DNA of 22,208 nt from positions 1-22,208 of the IMG/VR virus record IMGVR_UViG_3300025896_000204, one strand, 5' to 3'. The stretch's first letter is position 1. Each line of letters opens with the position of its first letter. The stretch is from a virus. Both the position numbers and the translations under genes were made by a program. The notes under the pieces are model-generated. The model searched no databases. It worked only from the letters and a program-made list of their open reading frames with translations, and was not told the origin of the DNA. Of the stretch, positions 1,791 to 14,678 are shown piece after piece.

Positions 1791-2492
1791 TCACTTTATT
1801 TCAGAATGTTTGGCTACGACGTGCTTTAGAAAAGTCTCTTTAAGTTCGTCGCTTAAGTTGCTCGATACAATCTCCATCACGTCGTGTAAAAGCGGAAATT
1901 TTTTGCTGGGCCTCTCTTGCTCCTGCGGCGGGGGCGGGGGCGGGGGCGGGGGCGGGGAGGCAGGCTCTCTTATCCTACTTACGGATGTCGTATACTTTCC
2001 GTAAGCGGCCACCTTTGGTTGATATCCCCTTCTTGTTAACCACCCTGATAGATTGCCCATTTTGATTTCTCCCCCCGAGGGGAGCCTGTAGCCTTGGGCG
2101 TTTAAGATCGTACAAATTTCAGTGTAAGTTTTTCCCGCCTTATGCAAGTCTACCACGTACTGAAAGTCGACCTCGTTAATACTTTTCGTCACCTTCTCCT
2201 CTTCCTGCTTTTTGGCAGGGGTTACGACGACAGGGTTAAAAAGCTTGCGCTCTTTCCGCTCCTGTTCAGCGTCCTCGGCCAAAGGGTCATAGTTATGTGT
2301 CCGCAAAAAGCGCCGTACATCCGCGCGAAAATTTTTCTCAGCCCTCCAGTCGCTCGGCGTGAGCGGTACTGCCACGACGAAATGCCGGTTCGGGGCGAAA
2401 AGCTTCCCATGCGGACCGTCGCGCTTATAATCAAAGCCACGCTCCACTAGCTCAGTCACGATGTCGCTGATGACCTCGTTCTTAGAGTACAA
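1791..2492 (-). CDS. Putative DNA-binding protein with polyproline linker
   Basis: A 233-residue protein starting at TTG (2492-2490), with AAAGGGTGG upstream and the stop of the 44-residue gene directly adjacent. Residues about 1-70 form a mixed alpha/beta part with HFVVAVPLTPSDWR. Residues about 105-155 (VVDLHKAGKTYTEICTILNAQGYRLPSGG) resemble the helix-turn-helix-like repeat of serine-recombinase 'Recombinase' domains, where a helix and 'LNxxGxxTPxG' recur. No recombinase catalytic domain is present. A run of ten prolines near residues 178-187 separates a C-terminal helical segment. It sits directly downstream of the conjugation cassette, so it may be co-expressed as a regulator or adaptor, but that is inference. 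Confidence 0.7.
   Translation of the reverse strand: MYSKNEVISDIVTELVERGFDYKRDGPHGKLFAPNRHFVVAVPLTPSDWRAEKNFRADVRRFLRTHNYDPLAEDAEQERKERKLFNPVVVTPAKKQEEEKVTKSINEVDFQYVVDLHKAGKTYTEICTILNAQGYRLPSGGEIKMGNLSGWLTRRGYQPKVAAYGKYTTSVSRIREPASPPPPPPPPPPQEQERPSKKFPLLHDVMEIVSSNLSDELKETFLKHVVAKHSEIK
1927..1958. repeat. GGGGGC hexamer repeat encoding Pro10
   Basis: The + strand carries a tandem run of GGGGGC units (about 4.5 copies) that encodes alternating CCG/CCC proline codons on the - strand. Insertion or loss of a unit changes the proline number by two and keeps frame. The G5 runs spaced by single C match a G-quadruplex pattern on the + strand. Confidence 0.9.
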
Positions 2493-2631: not shown

Positions 2632-3336
2632 CTACCCTTCGGAACGTACAGGTACATCTTCACGGTACACCTTCATGTCCATGTTTTTGATCGACCAAAG
2701 AGTGATCCGAGGCGGAGCCTCTTTGGTGAGAATAGCTTTCACTGAACGCACGCACCAGCCGGAGATTAGCGCAGCGGTATAGCCCGTGGCTTTGGCGGTG
2801 CAAGGCGCTTGGACCGCATCTGCATCCGTATAGAGTGTTTTCCGGTAGGTCGCCGCATCTTTGGGGTTGTGCGGACGGACAGTGTACATGAGCGCTTCTT
2901 CGGCCCCCATGCGACAGTCGATGAACCACTCCACAAAGATGTGACTCTTGCAGATTTCTTCAAAGACCTGCTTTCGGACTTCCATGGAATCCACCGCACA
3001 AATCACAATGCCTTTCGTGGCGGGGTCCGGGGACCACTTCTCGGTGGCCACACGTAAACCGATTTTAGCCGAAAGCTTCTGCACAATCTTAGTGAGCGCA
3101 AAAACTTTTGGAACCCCCACGTCTTCTCTGCCGTAGAGTTGGCAGTTGACGTTTTCGATGGCGACCTTGTCGTGGTCGTACACCGTAATATCGGTCATTC
3201 CCATTTTTGCAAGAAGTAGAACGACCCACGACCCGATAGCCCCCGCCCCAACCACCGTGACCGGCGTGGAGAGGGTTTTCTCGGGTATGATGTCATATTG
3301 ACGGATGAGATGCGGCTTGTCTGATACCAAAGACAT
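2632..3336 (-). CDS. ThiF/E1-like ubiquitin-activating enzyme
   Basis: A 234-residue Rossmann adenylating enzyme of the ThiF/MoeB/E1 superfamily, which activates the C-terminus of a ubiquitin-like protein with ATP. The nucleotide loop GAGAIG is at residues 30-35, the acidic strand end YDHD at 53-56, Lys77 fits the conserved ATP Lys, and Asp116 (CAVDS) fits the Mg site. Cys179 in APCTAKAT lies where E1 enzymes keep the thioester-forming Cys. The usual 'NxxRQ' element reads ENVNCQ, so the ATP-contacting Arg is replaced by Cys65. No CxxC zinc pairs are present. The ATG has AGGAAGGA upstream, 12 bases after the JAB stop. It likely partners with the ubiquitin-like and E2-like proteins encoded just upstream. 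Confidence 0.9.
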   Translation of the reverse strand: MSLVSDKPHLIRQYDIIPEKTLSTPVTVVGAGAIGSWVVLLLAKMGMTDITVYDHDKVAIENVNCQLYGREDVGVPKVFALTKIVQKLSAKIGLRVATEKWSPDPATKGIVICAVDSMEVRKQVFEEICKSHIFVEWFIDCRMGAEEALMYTVRPHNPKDAATYRKTLYTDADAVQAPCTAKATGYTAALISGWCVRSVKAILTKEAPPRITLWSIKNMDMKVYREDVPVRSEG

Positions 3337-3348
3337 ATCGTGTCCTTC

Positions 3349-4230
3349 CTAGTCTTGCGACTCGGTGTAAAGAACCAGGTCAATTTCCTGATTCAGTTTT
3401 GTAACTTCCTCTAGGTCCCCATCGGCGTATATGTCGAGGAGCCTGCGCCAGGAGCGCTTAAGCACTCGGGCGTACTCTTTGATATCTTTGACCGCGTAGC
3501 TTAGGCCATCAGCGGCGGGGACCCAATCGTCGTCGCGCCAGCCGACTTCGCTTGTTTGCAGAAGATTCCCGCGATTGTCGTCATCGCTGGCGAAAGGCGA
3601 GCCCTTACCCGCGTAGTATTCCCAGTCGCGCGCTTCATAGTCCCAGCGGCGCCACTGATCTCCGTACTTAAACCAGGTTCCCTTCTCCGGAGTTCCGCCC
3701 CAGCGCCCGATAGCTTTCCAGGTGCGTTCGCGGACGTTATCCGTGAATTCTTTCTCCCAATCGGGATTAACCTCGTAGGAGGGGTCAATCACTTCAAAAG
3801 CGATGGAGTCACTCTCGAAGAGTTGCTTCACGCCAAGAGTGTTTTCGTACATGGCAGAATAAGCGGACCTACTCTCGCCAAGTTGGTTAAACACCGTTGC
3901 CACGCAAAAGCCGTTTTGCGCGAACTTTTGGATGGTCTGCTTATCCTGACCACTCCAAAACGCGGGCATTTTGACGTGCGAGTGCCACCACCAGTTGAGC
4001 ATTCCTTCGCGACCACTTTTGTGGACGTTGTACATGAGCTTGCCCATTGCGGCGGGGTCAATGTCGGTGTGAGCGGCGCCCCCCTCTTGCGAGGGTAAAA
4101 AGGCGTCGACCACCGTAAACGTATCCTTCCCGTCGAAAGTGACAAGGCCCATGCCACTGACCTCAAAGTCAGCCCGGTGGACCCAGTACATTACTTTTTG
4201 ATACACTTCTTTTAGTATGCAGATGCGCAT
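3349..4230 (-). CDS. JAB/JAMM-family isopeptidase
   Basis: A 293-residue protein with an N-terminal JAB/MPN metalloprotease domain. Glu23 (DFEVSG), His83-Ser-His85, Ser93 and Asp96 match the JAMM zinc site (E...H-S-H-x7-S-x2-D). In related systems such enzymes process a ubiquitin-like precursor or remove it from targets. Residues about 100-293 form a long, Trp/Tyr- and acid-rich extension (for example RRWDYEARDWEYY) with a helical C-terminus and no family I recognise. The start has AAAAGGAGAAAG upstream and lies 12 bases after the E2-like stop. Zinc-site completeness argues for an active enzyme. The ubiquitin-like protein carries one residue after its Gly, a possible trimming substrate. Confidence 0.9.
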   Translation of the reverse strand: MRICILKEVYQKVMYWVHRADFEVSGMGLVTFDGKDTFTVVDAFLPSQEGGAAHTDIDPAAMGKLMYNVHKSGREGMLNWWWHSHVKMPAFWSGQDKQTIQKFAQNGFCVATVFNQLGESRSAYSAMYENTLGVKQLFESDSIAFEVIDPSYEVNPDWEKEFTDNVRERTWKAIGRWGGTPEKGTWFKYGDQWRRWDYEARDWEYYAGKGSPFASDDDNRGNLLQTSEVGWRDDDWVPAADGLSYAVKDIKEYARVLKRSWRRLLDIYADGDLEEVTKLNQEIDLVLYTESQD

Positions 4231-4242
4231 GACTTTCTCCTT

Positions 4243-5568
4243 TTAGAAATACCCTTCTTCTTCGCTGTCGTAATCGACGGCCTCTTCAGTATCCTCGTCC
4301 GCTTCGTATGGGCGTAAAGCACTCACGCTGACGCTCGCGCTATAGGGACTTAAGAACCCGTAGGAGCGGAAAAACGAAGTTGCGTCTGAGGGGAACCGGA
4401 CAGCTTCCAACCAATTCTCAGCGTTCGTCACCTTCCGAAAATTCTCCGCAGGTCCTGCGGAATACATATGCCAGCCGCAGTCTCCATCTTCCTCAACCGC
4501 ATAGGAAAGTCCGATCCCCGTTTTAAACGCAGGAACAAGCTTCCACTCGTTTCCTTCGGCATCCTCGTGGCGCGCTAGAACGCACGAGGCATCCTCGTCC
4601 ACAACCCAGTGGAGCGCTTCAAGTTTTGTATCGTGCCCAATGATTCTCTCGGTAAGGCCGGGAGAGTTTGAGCCCCTCATTGCGGCGTATGACAGGGAGA
4701 AAAGCTTGGCGATGTCCAAGCCATTTAGATTCCTCCGGGATAAAATATCCATGGCAGTTTCAGTAAATCTCTCAAACTCCTGTAGGGCGCGCCCCCGATC
4801 CTGCTCCTCGTGATATCGGCTAAGATTCACGTAGGGAGAGGCGGGGTTGTAGGTGGTGAGAATCAGATGCAGCGCCTCGAATAGGGGTTCAACGTCGTAG
4901 GTCTCCACCGCCTTGGTGACGACTCCCGCCGCATTTCCCCAGCACACATTCCCTGAGCGGCTCACGTGAGGGTGAGGGTAATCAATCGGCATTTTGTGCT
5001 CGAAAGATACAACCACCCGCAAGGGGTTGAACTTAACCTTCACCGTCGCTTTGCCAAAGTCGACCGAGTAATCCACTCCCGCACCGTCATCTTTGTAGCG
5101 CATGACGATGGGATCTTTAGACACGAAAAAGGCATACTCCCCCGCGTTTGGGGAATACTCCCACTTGCCCTTGGCCAAGACTTTGGTGAGCGACTCTTCC
5201 AAAACTTGCAAAGGGTCAAACTTCAAAGCCTCGTAGTACGCAAGAGAAGCTTCAGAAAGCCCTTCAGCACGTGCAGCGTAGGAATCCCAAAAATACTCCA
5301 CCTCTCTTCGAGCGAGATTTAACTGATCGGTCGCGCGGTCGACGACGTGGTTCTGCGAAAATCCACCTTTCGCCAAATACTTTCTTAGGCCGTCAGGCAG
5401 TTCCACAGATACGTTATCCATAAGGCGCGGAAGCACCTCAGCGAAGAACTTCTTGTTTACGTCAAGCTTGGTCGCACAGTCAGCAAACGCCGGCGGCTCA
5501 ATATACTTGTAGGGAACCCCTACCTGCGCCGCAAGCAAACTTAGGTACAACTCTTTATCAAAAGACAT
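4243..5568 (-). CDS. E2-like ubiquitin-conjugating protein
   Basis: A 441-residue protein with a central UBC-like domain at about residues 120-250. Strands ending LRVVVSFEHKMP are followed by YPHPHV (residues 197-202) and Cys209 in GNVCWG. This mirrors the 'HPN...C' active site of E2 enzymes. A helix and ILTTYNPASPYV then match the 'LL-x3-NP-x2-P' element after the catalytic Cys in E2s. About 120 residues precede the domain. About 190 follow it, ending in an acidic tail (EADEDTEEAVDYDSEEE). A usual bacterial E2 is much shorter. The ATG has GGAG upstream. It would accept the activated ubiquitin-like protein from the E1-like enzyme. No RING or other E3 is seen. Confidence 0.85.
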   Translation of the reverse strand: MSFDKELYLSLLAAQVGVPYKYIEPPAFADCATKLDVNKKFFAEVLPRLMDNVSVELPDGLRKYLAKGGFSQNHVVDRATDQLNLARREVEYFWDSYAARAEGLSEASLAYYEALKFDPLQVLEESLTKVLAKGKWEYSPNAGEYAFFVSKDPIVMRYKDDGAGVDYSVDFGKATVKVKFNPLRVVVSFEHKMPIDYPHPHVSRSGNVCWGNAAGVVTKAVETYDVEPLFEALHLILTTYNPASPYVNLSRYHEEQDRGRALQEFERFTETAMDILSRRNLNGLDIAKLFSLSYAAMRGSNSPGLTERIIGHDTKLEALHWVVDEDASCVLARHEDAEGNEWKLVPAFKTGIGLSYAVEEDGDCGWHMYSAGPAENFRKVTNAENWLEAVRFPSDATSFFRSYGFLSPYSASVSVSALRPYEADEDTEEAVDYDSEEEGYF

Positions 5569-5584
5569 GGGTAACTCCAGGGTT

Positions 5585-5610
5585 AGGCCCCCCTGTCACC
5601 AAGGGGGCCT
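5585..5610 (-). terminator. Hairpin between ubiquitin-like and E2-like genes
   Basis: AGGCCCCC (5585-5592) and GGGGGCCT (5603-5610) form an 8-bp stem with a 10-base loop in the short gap after the ubiquitin-like stop. No U tract follows on the - strand. It is more likely a 3'-end stabiliser or partial attenuator than a full terminator, and could raise the amount of the small modifier over the enzymes. Confidence 0.5.
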
Positions 5611-5618
5611 TGTTGAGG

Positions 5619-5819
5619 TTAGGCGCCTTTGACCTGCTCGGTGAGGGCAACGAACTCATAATCGTTGAGTCCGCAGCTATCCTCATCTTCGGGCTCGCCG
5701 TTGATCGTCGCCGTGTATTTGACGCCGTCACGCGCGAACATACGCTTAAGCTCCCCCAGCGTGTTTGCTTCTTTTTGTTGGATGCTTCCACCCGCGACCT
5801 GTACGTTAACCTTAGCCAT
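5619..5819 (-). CDS. Ubiquitin-like modifier, MoaD/ThiS type
   Basis: A 66-residue beta-grasp candidate. The first strand (AKVNVQVAGG), the single helix (LGELKRMFARDG), then YTATINGEP and a final strand (YEFVALTEQVKGA) follow the ThiS/MoaD plan, where the ending is typically 'V-x-Q-G-G'. The ATG at 5819-5817 has AAAAGGAGAG upstream and is preferred to a start at 5897. It is the first gene of the cassette, 50 bases before the E2-like gene. Presumed role: a protein tag adenylated by the E1-like enzyme and passed to the E2-like protein. The C-terminus is Gly-Ala, not Gly-Gly. Sulfur transfer instead of conjugation is an alternative, but the E2 and JAB partners favour conjugation. Confidence 0.8.
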   Translation of the reverse strand: MAKVNVQVAGGSIQQKEANTLGELKRMFARDGVKYTATINGEPEDEDSCGLNDYEFVALTEQVKGA

Positions 5820-6943: not shown

Positions 6944-6974
6944 TTAACCTCTCGATCTGAGTCTTAATGACTCA

Positions 6975-7012
6975 AGCGGAGGCCTCATGGCCCCCGCCTC
7001 AATCATTCTTCA
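6975..7012. repeat. Intergenic hairpin repeat, copy 1
   Basis: A 38-base element that matches 7495-7532 at 36 positions, exactly 520 bases apart. Its core AGCGGAGGCC-TCAT-GGCCCCCGC folds into a hairpin with one mismatch. The right end covers the last codons and stop of the adjoining - strand gene. It is also flanked by a GAGTC/GACTC inverted pair. Confidence 0.75.
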
Positions 7013-7465: not shown

Positions 7466-7494
7466 AATGAACCTCTTTCCGGAGTTATAACTCC

Positions 7495-7532
7495 AGCGGA
7501 GGCCTCATGGCCCCCGCCGCAATTATTCTTCA
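7495..7532. repeat. Intergenic hairpin repeat, copy 2
   Basis: Second copy of the 38-base element at 6975-7012 (36/38 identical), again placed across the stop codon of a - strand gene. The two copies differ at 7519 and 7524. The second difference turns TGA into TAA. Confidence 0.75.
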
Positions 7533-7727: not shown

Positions 7728-7785
7728 CTTGACTCAAGATGCGCGACCTTGGGTGTGACCCCAAGGTCGCGCCGGTTCAGTCAAG
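7728..7785. other. Long two-part hairpin
   Basis: GCGCGACCTTGGG (7741-7753) pairs perfectly with CCCAAGGTCGCGC (7760-7772), and outside it CTTGACT (7728-7734) pairs with AGTCAAG (7779-7785). An alternative pairing AGATGCGC (7737-7744) with GCGCATCT (7785-7792) competes. No U tract follows. Confidence 0.7.
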
Positions 7786-13751: not shown

Positions 13752-14678
13752 ATGTCTCAACAAATCACTGAGGCGTTCGTCCAGCAGTACAACGCGAACG
13801 TCTACCACTTGTCCCAGCAAAAGGGGTCTTTGATCGCACCCTACGTGCGCAAAGAAACCCAAAAAGGAAAATCGGAGTTCTTCGACCGTATCGGACCTGT
13901 TGCCGCTCAGAAGCGCACTGGCCGCCACTCGCCGACTCCGCAAATCGACACTCCCCACTCGCGTCGGATGGTCACCATGGAAGACTACGAATGGGCTGAC
14001 CTGGTCGACGATCAGGACAAAATTCGTATGTTGGATGACCCTACGTCGGAGTACGCCATGGCGGCTGCTTGGGCGTTCGGTCGTACCAAAGACGACGTCA
14101 TCATCGCATCGGCACTGGGAACCGCTTACGCTGGCGAAACCGGCACGAGCACTGTCTCCCACCCGAATAGCCAGAAGATCGCAGCAAACGACGGCACGAA
14201 CTTCACCGACCTGAACGTCCGGACTCTGCGGAAAATCCGCACGATCCTGCGCCGTGGTTTGGTGGACAAGTCGCTTCCGTTGTACGCCTTGGTCGGATCG
14301 TCTCAGATCGAGTCGCTCTTGTCGCAGACCGAAGTGACCTCTTCGGACTACGCTAACGTGAAAGCGTTGGTGCAGGGTGAAGTGGACACCTACATGGGGT
14401 TCAAATTCCTGGAGACTGAGCGCCTCGGCCTCACCACCTCTTCTGCTGCTTCCGCTTCCACTGGTGCGGTTGGCTCGGGAAGTTCGGTGGTTGGTTCTCG
14501 CGCCTGCATCTTCTTCGCCGGCGACGGCGTGTTGATGTCGACCGGGATGGACTACCAGTCGAAAATCAGCGAGCGTGCTGACCTCGGCTACTCGACTCAG
14601 GTTTACAGCCGGATGTCGATTGGCGGGACCCGCATGGAAGAAGTGAAAGTCGTCGAAGCGATCTGCAAAGAGTCGTAA
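13752..14678 (+). CDS. Major capsid protein
   Basis: A 308-residue protein in the capsid position of the operon, with TTGGAGGAGAAT directly before its ATG. It has a plausible HK97-fold composition: an N-terminal arm (ITEAFVQQYNANVY), a long helix region (YAMAAAWAFGRTKDD), and a Ser/Ala-rich insert (about residues 230-250) before the final strands (RMSIGGTRMEEVKVVEAI). It resembles capsid proteins of podoviruses outside the strict T7 family. It forms the icosahedral shell on the scaffold encoded upstream. A strong hairpin follows its stop. Confidence 0.88.
   Translation: MSQQITEAFVQQYNANVYHLSQQKGSLIAPYVRKETQKGKSEFFDRIGPVAAQKRTGRHSPTPQIDTPHSRRMVTMEDYEWADLVDDQDKIRMLDDPTSEYAMAAAWAFGRTKDDVIIASALGTAYAGETGTSTVSHPNSQKIAANDGTNFTDLNVRTLRKIRTILRRGLVDKSLPLYALVGSSQIESLLSQTEVTSSDYANVKALVQGEVDTYMGFKFLETERLGLTTSSAASASTGAVGSGSSVVGSRACIFFAGDGVLMSTGMDYQSKISERADLGYSTQVYSRMSIGGTRMEEVKVVEAICKES

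Follow-up and report, generated by a model that had tools for sequence, protein, structure and literature searches.

The window, by which we mean the whole stretch of 22,208 bases analysed here, is the complete virus record IMGVR_UViG_3300025896_000204 of IMG/VR, and at positions 2632-5819 it carries a candidate ubiquitin-like conjugation cassette of four adjacent minus-strand genes. These encode a ubiquitin-like modifier (Ubl), an E2-like protein, a JAB metalloprotease and an E1-like adenylating enzyme, with gaps of 50, 12 and 12 bases between them, and a Shine-Dalgarno-like sequence lies ahead of every ATG (AAAGGAG, GGAG, AAGGAG and GGAAGGA). The frames are open exactly as described in an earlier model-generated account of the letters alone, hereafter the sequence-only reading, which had noted four minus-strand genes with 12-50 base gaps. 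That account had also pointed to Cys209 of the E2 behind an HPHV motif, a full set of JAMM ligands and Cys179 of the E1; all of these are present, and they turned out to be invariant or nearly so in relatives.

The Ubl gene (5619-5819, minus strand) encodes 66 residues ending in EQVKGA, with the terminal KGA at 5622-5630. As a single sequence, the protein gave nothing useful in Pfam, NCBIfam, PADLOC or PHROGs. A profile built from 12 Ubl relatives (A6) matched SAMP2 from its complex with JAMM1 best (5lda_B, E = 2.6e-10), followed by PF1061 (6e-10) and MoaD (5e-3). The AlphaFold2 model reached a mean predicted local distance difference test (pLDDT) score of 87.6 with the strand order of a beta-grasp, and Foldseek paired it with SUMO, ISG15 and ubiquitin (probability 1.00, template-modelling score ~0.7, E = 2e-3). 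The modelled Ubl has the SAMP2/MoaD/ThiS-like beta-grasp fold that defines the family. Most relatives end in KGG plus zero to five residues; overall, KGG, RGG, KTGG or KAG plus a few residues is the usual end of a short Ubl, and the Ubls of the crAss/FpV4 type continue beyond an SG, commonly KSG, into a long carboxy-terminal extension. With a JAB gene adjoining, such glycine-plus-residues and KSG-plus-extension ends fit a precursor that would be trimmed by JAB to its glycine end. At five loci (L017, L028, L095, L098 and L105) the Ubl already ends in glycine and the JAB is kept, so that there it would serve tag removal. In the crAss/FpV4-type Ubls (L003:2262-2939, L006:2607-3476 and kin), the first part of the post-KSG extension is conserved among crAss-like phages (MSRAEAYNAIK...CKTxDLIxL), and this extension is perhaps a small separate domain freed by JAB.

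The E2-like protein (4243-5568, minus strand; 441 residues) consists of a helical amino-terminal part (residues 1-118), a UBC-like core (approximately residues 119-255), and a further helical and low-confidence beta-rich carboxy-terminal part. It likewise found nothing useful as a single sequence in the four collections named above. For the profile A8 we trimmed 14 E2 relatives to the core, the full-length profile being swamped by coiled-coil chance matches; nearly all of its 60 best PDB matches were E2s, headed by UBE2L3 (E = 0.001) with the catalytic cysteine aligned. Cys209 directly follows HPHVSRSGNV, forming the active-site motif HPHVSRSGNVC (residues 199-209; 4942-4974, minus strand), and H199, P200, C209 and G211 are invariant in the E2 alignment (A5). 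The His-to-Cys spacing, HPH-x7-C, is that of eukaryotic HPN-x7-C, as in the UBE2D-type motif HPNINSNGSIC. The window protein thereby shows the HPN-like motif and the cysteine at UBC spacing that mark the E2/UBC superfamily. Among relatives the pattern H-x-H...C-x-G is kept; in a divergent group of 600-residue E2s the Cys and Gly are likewise invariant, and hhalign joins this group to the window-type core with E = 6e-7. The crAss001/FpV4-type E2s have an HSH motif and a longer spacing to the cysteine than the window E2. Relatives range from 206 to more than 800 residues around the constant core, suggesting lineage-specific target choice. In the predicted structure the core reached pLDDT values of 85-95, and a Foldseek search against viral models gave no informative match.

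The JAB/JAMM metalloprotease (3349-4230, minus strand; 293 residues) ends in a tryptophan-rich extension. Its metal ligands are E23, H83-S-H85, S93 and D96 (E-xn-HSH-x7-S-x2-D), those from residue 83 to 96 lying in the motif HSHVKMPAFWSGQD (3943-3984, minus strand). E23, H83, H85, S93 and D96, and with them the JAMM motif, are kept in 60/60 JAB sequences. The window protein alone matched PF14464 weakly (E 0.004), and a profile of 18 relatives (A7) matched the archaeal Rpn11-like protein 6fjv with E = 1.2e-11 and also found human Rpn11, CSN5 and JAMM1. An intact JAMM motif was present in the gene directly upstream of E1 at 58/59 loci with enough upstream sequence, compared with 1/11,800 shuffled proteins.

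The E1-like adenylating enzyme (2632-3336, minus strand) comprises 234 residues and a single ThiF domain, matching PF00899 with E = 3e-25 and 89.1 bits (cut-off 28.1). The best PDB matches of its profile (A1) were UBA5 (E = 9e-13), then Uba1, NAE, MccB, TcdA, ThiF, MoeB, Cap2 and BubCD. The window E1 contains a GAGAIG loop, K77, D116 and Cys179, and the residues that make up the ATP site of the E1/ThiF superfamily (G30, G32, K77 and D116) are conserved. In all 80 phage E1s retained for analysis C179, N62, K77, D116, R121, D140 and R142 are present. Cys179 (codon at 2800-2802, minus strand) is the putative Ubl-thioester cysteine; HMMER aligns it, in a second and weak segment, with the Cys of EGVCAASLPTT in UBA5.

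The cassette is not confined to the window phage, as the four genes recur in the same order in many unrelated phages. A tblastn search with the E1 yielded 82 isolate or uncultured phage records, including crAss001, other crAss-like phages, Flavobacterium phage FpV4 and Xanthomonas phage PhiXhv-12. The same search with E2, JAB and Ubl gave no match among isolated phages; these sequences were missed because they have diverged, though synteny reveals them. The order Ubl-E2-JAB-E1 was found in crAss001 (gp79 Ubl, gp78 E2-like, gp77 JAB, gp76 E1), cr85_1, bajarodcaudo virus 1, FpV4 and metagenomic phages. Xanthomonas jumbo phages have the order Ubl-E2-E1; PhiXhv-12 encodes a Ubl already ending in GG, an 892-residue HPH...C protein and an E1, and its lack of a JAB gene is in keeping with a trimming role of JAB. 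In the jumbo phages (L007:6010-6693 and L007:3319-5997) the large HPH...C protein bears a Cys-rich tail, and the JAB-less set is a possible irreversible variant. A profile scan of viral contigs returned 197 E1 relatives, 80 of which were kept for analysis, and a second scan with closer relatives gave 33 matches, among them 13 new window-type loci (L095-L107). At L095-L106, the added loci with upstream sequence, a JAB gene precedes E1 in 12/12 cases and an E2-sized gene precedes the JAB, with the E2 active-site pattern matched in 11. Cassette genes overlap or abut in relatives, and over 43 non-redundant cassettes the distance between two E1s tracks those between the corresponding JABs and E2s (pairwise correlations 0.79-0.90), so that the three appear to travel together.

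Since dozens of divergent phages show this arrangement, a chance origin of the cassette is excluded. A second contig of 26,054 bases encodes an E1 and an E2 100% identical to those of the window and agrees with window 8-22 kb at 14,207/14,208 compared bases, so the junction between cassette and phage is no one-off assembly error; the two contigs may represent one population. Outside viruses, 84,980 bacterial and archaeal species genomes contained one E1 relative, on a 3.7-kb contig, a count that is a lower bound as the scan used one peptide pattern. Among plasmids, no match to E2 or JAB was found, and E1 retrieved only distant ThiF proteins, one of them within a PRTRC locus. In the tree, 64 viral E1s lie apart from MoeB, ThiF, TcdA and PRTRC ThiF, with weak support for their unity (87/66). 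The only annotations given to the crAss001 and FpV4 sets are 'thiamine biosynthesis', 'metalloprotease' and 'hypothetical'. For the E1 genes of the cultured crAss-like (L003, crAss001 gp76-gp79) and Flavobacterium (L006, FpV4) phages, labelled 'thiamine biosynthesis protein', no other thiamine gene is annotated nearby, and they look like misannotated E1 enzymes.

Several observations weigh against reading the four genes as a conjugation cassette. The window Ubl ends in VKGA and has no GG, and an Ala-ending ubiquitin is a poor substrate in eukaryotes. L100 also has KGA, L009 has KAGA, and L095 and L098 have KAG; for the window, either the final Ala is a one-residue tail and the Ubl matures to ...KG, or the Ala itself is the mature terminus or this copy is altered. 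Furthermore, the Arg of the N-x-x-R motif of MoeB, ThiF and UBA5 is absent from 80/80 phage E1s, in which V, G, N, C or S occupies position 65, and both PaaA and UBA5 carry Arg at the equivalent position. With the Pfam cut-off far exceeded, we consider this a departure within the E1/ThiF superfamily and no exclusion from it. For the E2, a Foldseek search of the 441-residue model against the PDB gave no significant match, the best E2 being UFC1 (E 0.2), and the UBC fold therefore rests on profile and motif. The hhalign comparison of the window E2 core with the crAss-type E2 was also weak (probability 48%, E = 2e-4).

Set against these points are independent profiles for all four proteins, conserved catalytic residues and a gene order shared by many phages, which bear out the Ubl/E2/JAB/E1 assignment of the sequence-only reading. 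Of the checks it had proposed, the profile searches identified the E1 through PF00899 and the JAB, Ubl and E2 core through profiles of their relatives, and structure prediction agreed for the Ubl beta-grasp; the E2 core was likewise modelled with confidence, but its Foldseek match was not significant. Gene content, gene order, the folds or families of the products and the conservation of their active sites are established. On the basis of these features, the window set very probably constitutes a phage-specific, reversible ubiquitin-like conjugation cassette.

The reactions themselves, and the way in which the Ubl is handed on, are what we infer from these components. The Ubl would be trimmed by the JAB to its C-terminal glycine, after which the single-domain E1 would adenylate it with ATP and hold it as a thioester on Cys179. 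From there the Ubl would move on to Cys209 of the E2, a thioester relay being the natural reading because E1 and E2 both have their cysteines. The E2, acting without a separate E3, would then join the Ubl to lysines of target proteins chosen by its variable amino- and carboxy-terminal parts, and the JAB would eventually take the tag off again. No E3-like gene was recognised with the cassette.

The genomic surroundings bear on what might be tagged. The left part of the window (0-7.7 kb), including the cassette, reads leftwards, whereas the plus strand at 8.3-22 kb holds a packaging and virion operon with an Sf6-type small terminase, large terminase, portal, major capsid and tail proteins, the capsid being ~50% identical to that of Pelagibacter phage HTVC010P and kin. 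The sequence-only reading had linked the cassette to this operon by proximity, and tagging of virion or assembly proteins of the phage itself, for maturation or quality control, would indeed be conceivable: both share a contig, and the lambda- and T1-type tail clusters described in the 2006 survey of prokaryotic ubiquitin systems encode a ubiquitin-like TAPI and a JAB-bearing TAPK (PMC1779556). However, cassette and operon lie on opposite strands ~2.5 kb apart, with cassette transcription running away from the operon. The capsids of cassette-bearing phages are unrelated as well, the window's capsid family occurring in only 2/17 cassette-bearing records, so the cassette occurs in phages with unrelated virions. 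Moreover, relatives place it mostly among replication, recombination and nucleotide genes. The neighbours are a primase, uracil-DNA glycosylase, exonuclease and ribonucleotide reductase in crAss001, a Toprim protein and a glycosylase in FpV4, a ligase and topoisomerases in PhiXhv-12, a primase and a helicase in L014 and L015, Sak4 and a DnaB-like helicase in L026, and ribonucleotide reductase in L017 and L018. Virion tagging is thus an unlikely role, and the supposed tie to the virion genes does not hold up; the DNA-metabolism neighbours instead indicate action in takeover or replication rather than assembly. As a tentative first guess, the target works ahead of virion assembly and belongs, whether of host or phage origin, to DNA replication, recombination or nucleotide metabolism. 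Host-defence proteins are the next and more doubtful guess.

The nucleotide-metabolism genes near cassettes would also suit a sulfur carrier, in which a Ubl of the ThiS/MoaD type is converted by the E1 to a thiocarboxylate, tRNA, a nucleotide or a cofactor is thiolated by the cassette on the phage's behalf, and the JAB only trims. The Ubl profile does match MoaD and SAMP2, which can act in sulfur transfer, and E2-less ThiF-Ubl-JAB sets occur in bacterial sulfur pathways according to that survey (Iyer 2006, PMC1779556). Yet nearly every phage cassette contains a conserved E2 with a catalytic cysteine, no rhodanese, desulfurase or thiolase gene was detected among the flanking genes searched, and the KSG-plus-extension precursors suit conjugation at least equally. 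We therefore regard sulfur transfer as very unlikely.

Among known systems, the PRTRC plasmid locus is closest in layout, with separate genes for a beta-grasp Ubl (C), an E2-like protein (B), a JAB (A) and a ThiF, arranged in the same relative order in CP114554; it resembles type 6d of Iyer 2006. The sequence-only reading had taken the order Ubl-E2-JAB-E1 to differ from known forms, which needs correcting, since PRTRC runs Ubl (C) - x - E2-like (B) - JAB (A) - ThiF and so shares the relative order. Differences lie in the extra gene between its Ubl and E2-like genes and in its occurrence on plasmids, not in lytic-type phages. This layout, along with a ParB-like gene near the cassette of the L031 phage, would be in line with capture of a bacterial plasmid-type module for plasmid-like maintenance of the phage genome. 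Against PRTRC_ThiF (TIGR03736), however, the window E1 scored 41.1 bits (cut-off 144.75), and the window JAB scored 14.7 bits against PRTRC_A (TIGR03735; cut-off 101.8), far below thresholds that a true PRTRC locus passes for both. Single-sequence-versus-profile hhalign comparisons with PRTRC proteins were uninformative. PRTRC membership, considered for the shared gene order, was rejected given these scores and the E1 tree, where PRTRC ThiF falls outside the phage group. In addition, the 6d E2-like protein is described in the survey as having no classical His (PMC1779556), in contrast to the phage E2, which keeps it as HPH. Capture of a PRTRC module is accordingly disfavoured and highly improbable.

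Bacterial defence systems share components but are built differently. Like the window set, Bil has four components (Ubl, E2, JAB and E1) and a processed Ubl precursor. In BilA, however, the Ubl domain is doubled, BilD combines two adenylation modules with a Cys domain, and BilB bears a CEHH motif (PMC11354881), whereas the window has a one-domain Ubl of 66 residues, a one-domain E1 of 234 residues and an HPH-x7-C E2; moreover, Bil is a host defence. With its single-domain Ubl and E1, the window set does not belong to Bil. The likeness to type II CBASS Cap2/Cap3 and to Bub lies in the E1/E2 chemistry and the JAB, and the E1 profile finds Cap2 (600 residues) and BubCD (458 residues, at 7e-7), both of them larger proteins. 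Type II CBASS combines an E2-E1 fusion (Cap2) with a CD-NTase; in the phages E1 and E2 are separate genes and a stand-alone Ubl is present. Membership of type II CBASS is ruled out by this separation and by the lack of a CD-NTase among the window proteins searched.

Such host tagging systems act against phages (PMC10097602, PMC11153139), and Bil and Bub are described in PMC13373217, Bub with no protection shown. Undoing host tagging would benefit a phage, and the JAB looks like an active isopeptidase. The phage set could thus imitate or dismantle host Bil, CBASS or Bub tagging, the JAB stripping host tags, for instance, with E1, E2 and Ubl as decoys. We find such counter-defence improbable: a decoy would have no need of the strict conservation seen in the active sites of E1 and E2, and retention of E1, E2 and tag as a forward pathway would be left unexplained. 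The host systems are also built differently, with fused or two-module E1s, and the spread of the cassette over many unrelated phages does not point to a narrow antagonist.

More distant likenesses concern single components. UBA5-UFC1-UFM1 resembles the phage set in its minimal E1, UBA5 being the best PDB match, and in UFC1 as the top-ranked but weak E2 fold match; the UFM1 protease is not a JAB, unlike that of the phage set. The resemblance is distant and may be one that simple E1s share at large. The archaeal SAMP2/JAMM1/UbaA system supplies the best Ubl match (5lda) and a JAMM1 match to the JAB profile, but it has no four-gene cassette and, to our knowledge, no E2. The sets of crAss001 (gp76-gp79) and FpV4 are relatives of the window cassette that differ by a precursor Ubl and an HSH E2. 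The 2006 survey describes phage Ubl-JAB pairs in tail clusters and E1/E2/JAB sets in bacteria (PMC1779556), and no paper on the phage cassette was found in the open-access literature; an earlier mention is possible, subscription papers and preprints lying outside that scope.

What is new is a phage-specific, broadly distributed variant of ubiquitin-like conjugation operons. Eukaryotic viruses carry single pieces of the ubiquitin system, and we know of no virus that brings its own whole cascade of E1, E2, Ubl and protease. We think it probable that the cassette is such a complete virus-encoded pathway of tag, E1, E2 and deconjugase, a phage lineage in its own right that passes between unrelated groups of phages and serves to run the infected cell through post-translational tagging of host or phage proteins. 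If so, phages would possess, as one whole conserved cassette, a tagging chemistry related to the one that bacteria turn against them, probably as a broadly useful means of infection. The set is directly testable now because cultured phages carry it, namely crAss001 (Bacteroides intestinalis), FpV4 (Flavobacterium psychrophilum) and PhiXhv-12 (Xanthomonas). It also offers diverse material on the evolution of ubiquitin-like conjugation, as the profiles lie nearer to SAMP2, Rpn11 and UBA5 than to the known bacterial defence forms.

Genes for AAA proteins occur near some cassettes. A ClpA/ClpC-like AAA+ protein (Clp_N, AAA, AAA_2, ClpB_D2-small) is encoded at L017:7263-9794, ~0.6 kb downstream of the cassette on a 152-kb phage contig, and a Cdc48-like AAA ATPase of ~525 residues lies a few kb downstream of E1 in L031, L032, L033, L061, L062, L063 and L074 (longest contigs 155-181 kb), preceded in L031 by the ParB-like gene. 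A proteasome-like link to AAA unfoldases was rejected, as the ClpA-like gene is found in L017 only and the Cdc48-like gene in one large-phage group, too few lineages for such a reading. Near the L013 cassette, a gene of a phage adenylosuccinate-synthetase-like family (L013:9407-10618; phrog_1211, with a PurZ-type name) hints that this phage has modified adenine.

Within the window, the gene directly downstream of E1 (1791-2492, minus strand) encodes a 233-residue protein whose amino-terminal part is of the phrog_3655 type and whose middle resembles a recombinase; it also contains ten consecutive prolines, for which a G+C-rich repeat near 1926-1953 codes. Between the cassette and the virion operon we observed a 46-nucleotide direct repeat, 91% identical (6967-7012 and 7487-7532), and a 26-nucleotide inverted repeat lies at 7728-7785; the two possibly have a regulatory role. 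Short direct repeats at 227-273, 538-584 and 912-935, located about where successive small genes read leftwards have their 3' ends, suggest a duplication of small genes.

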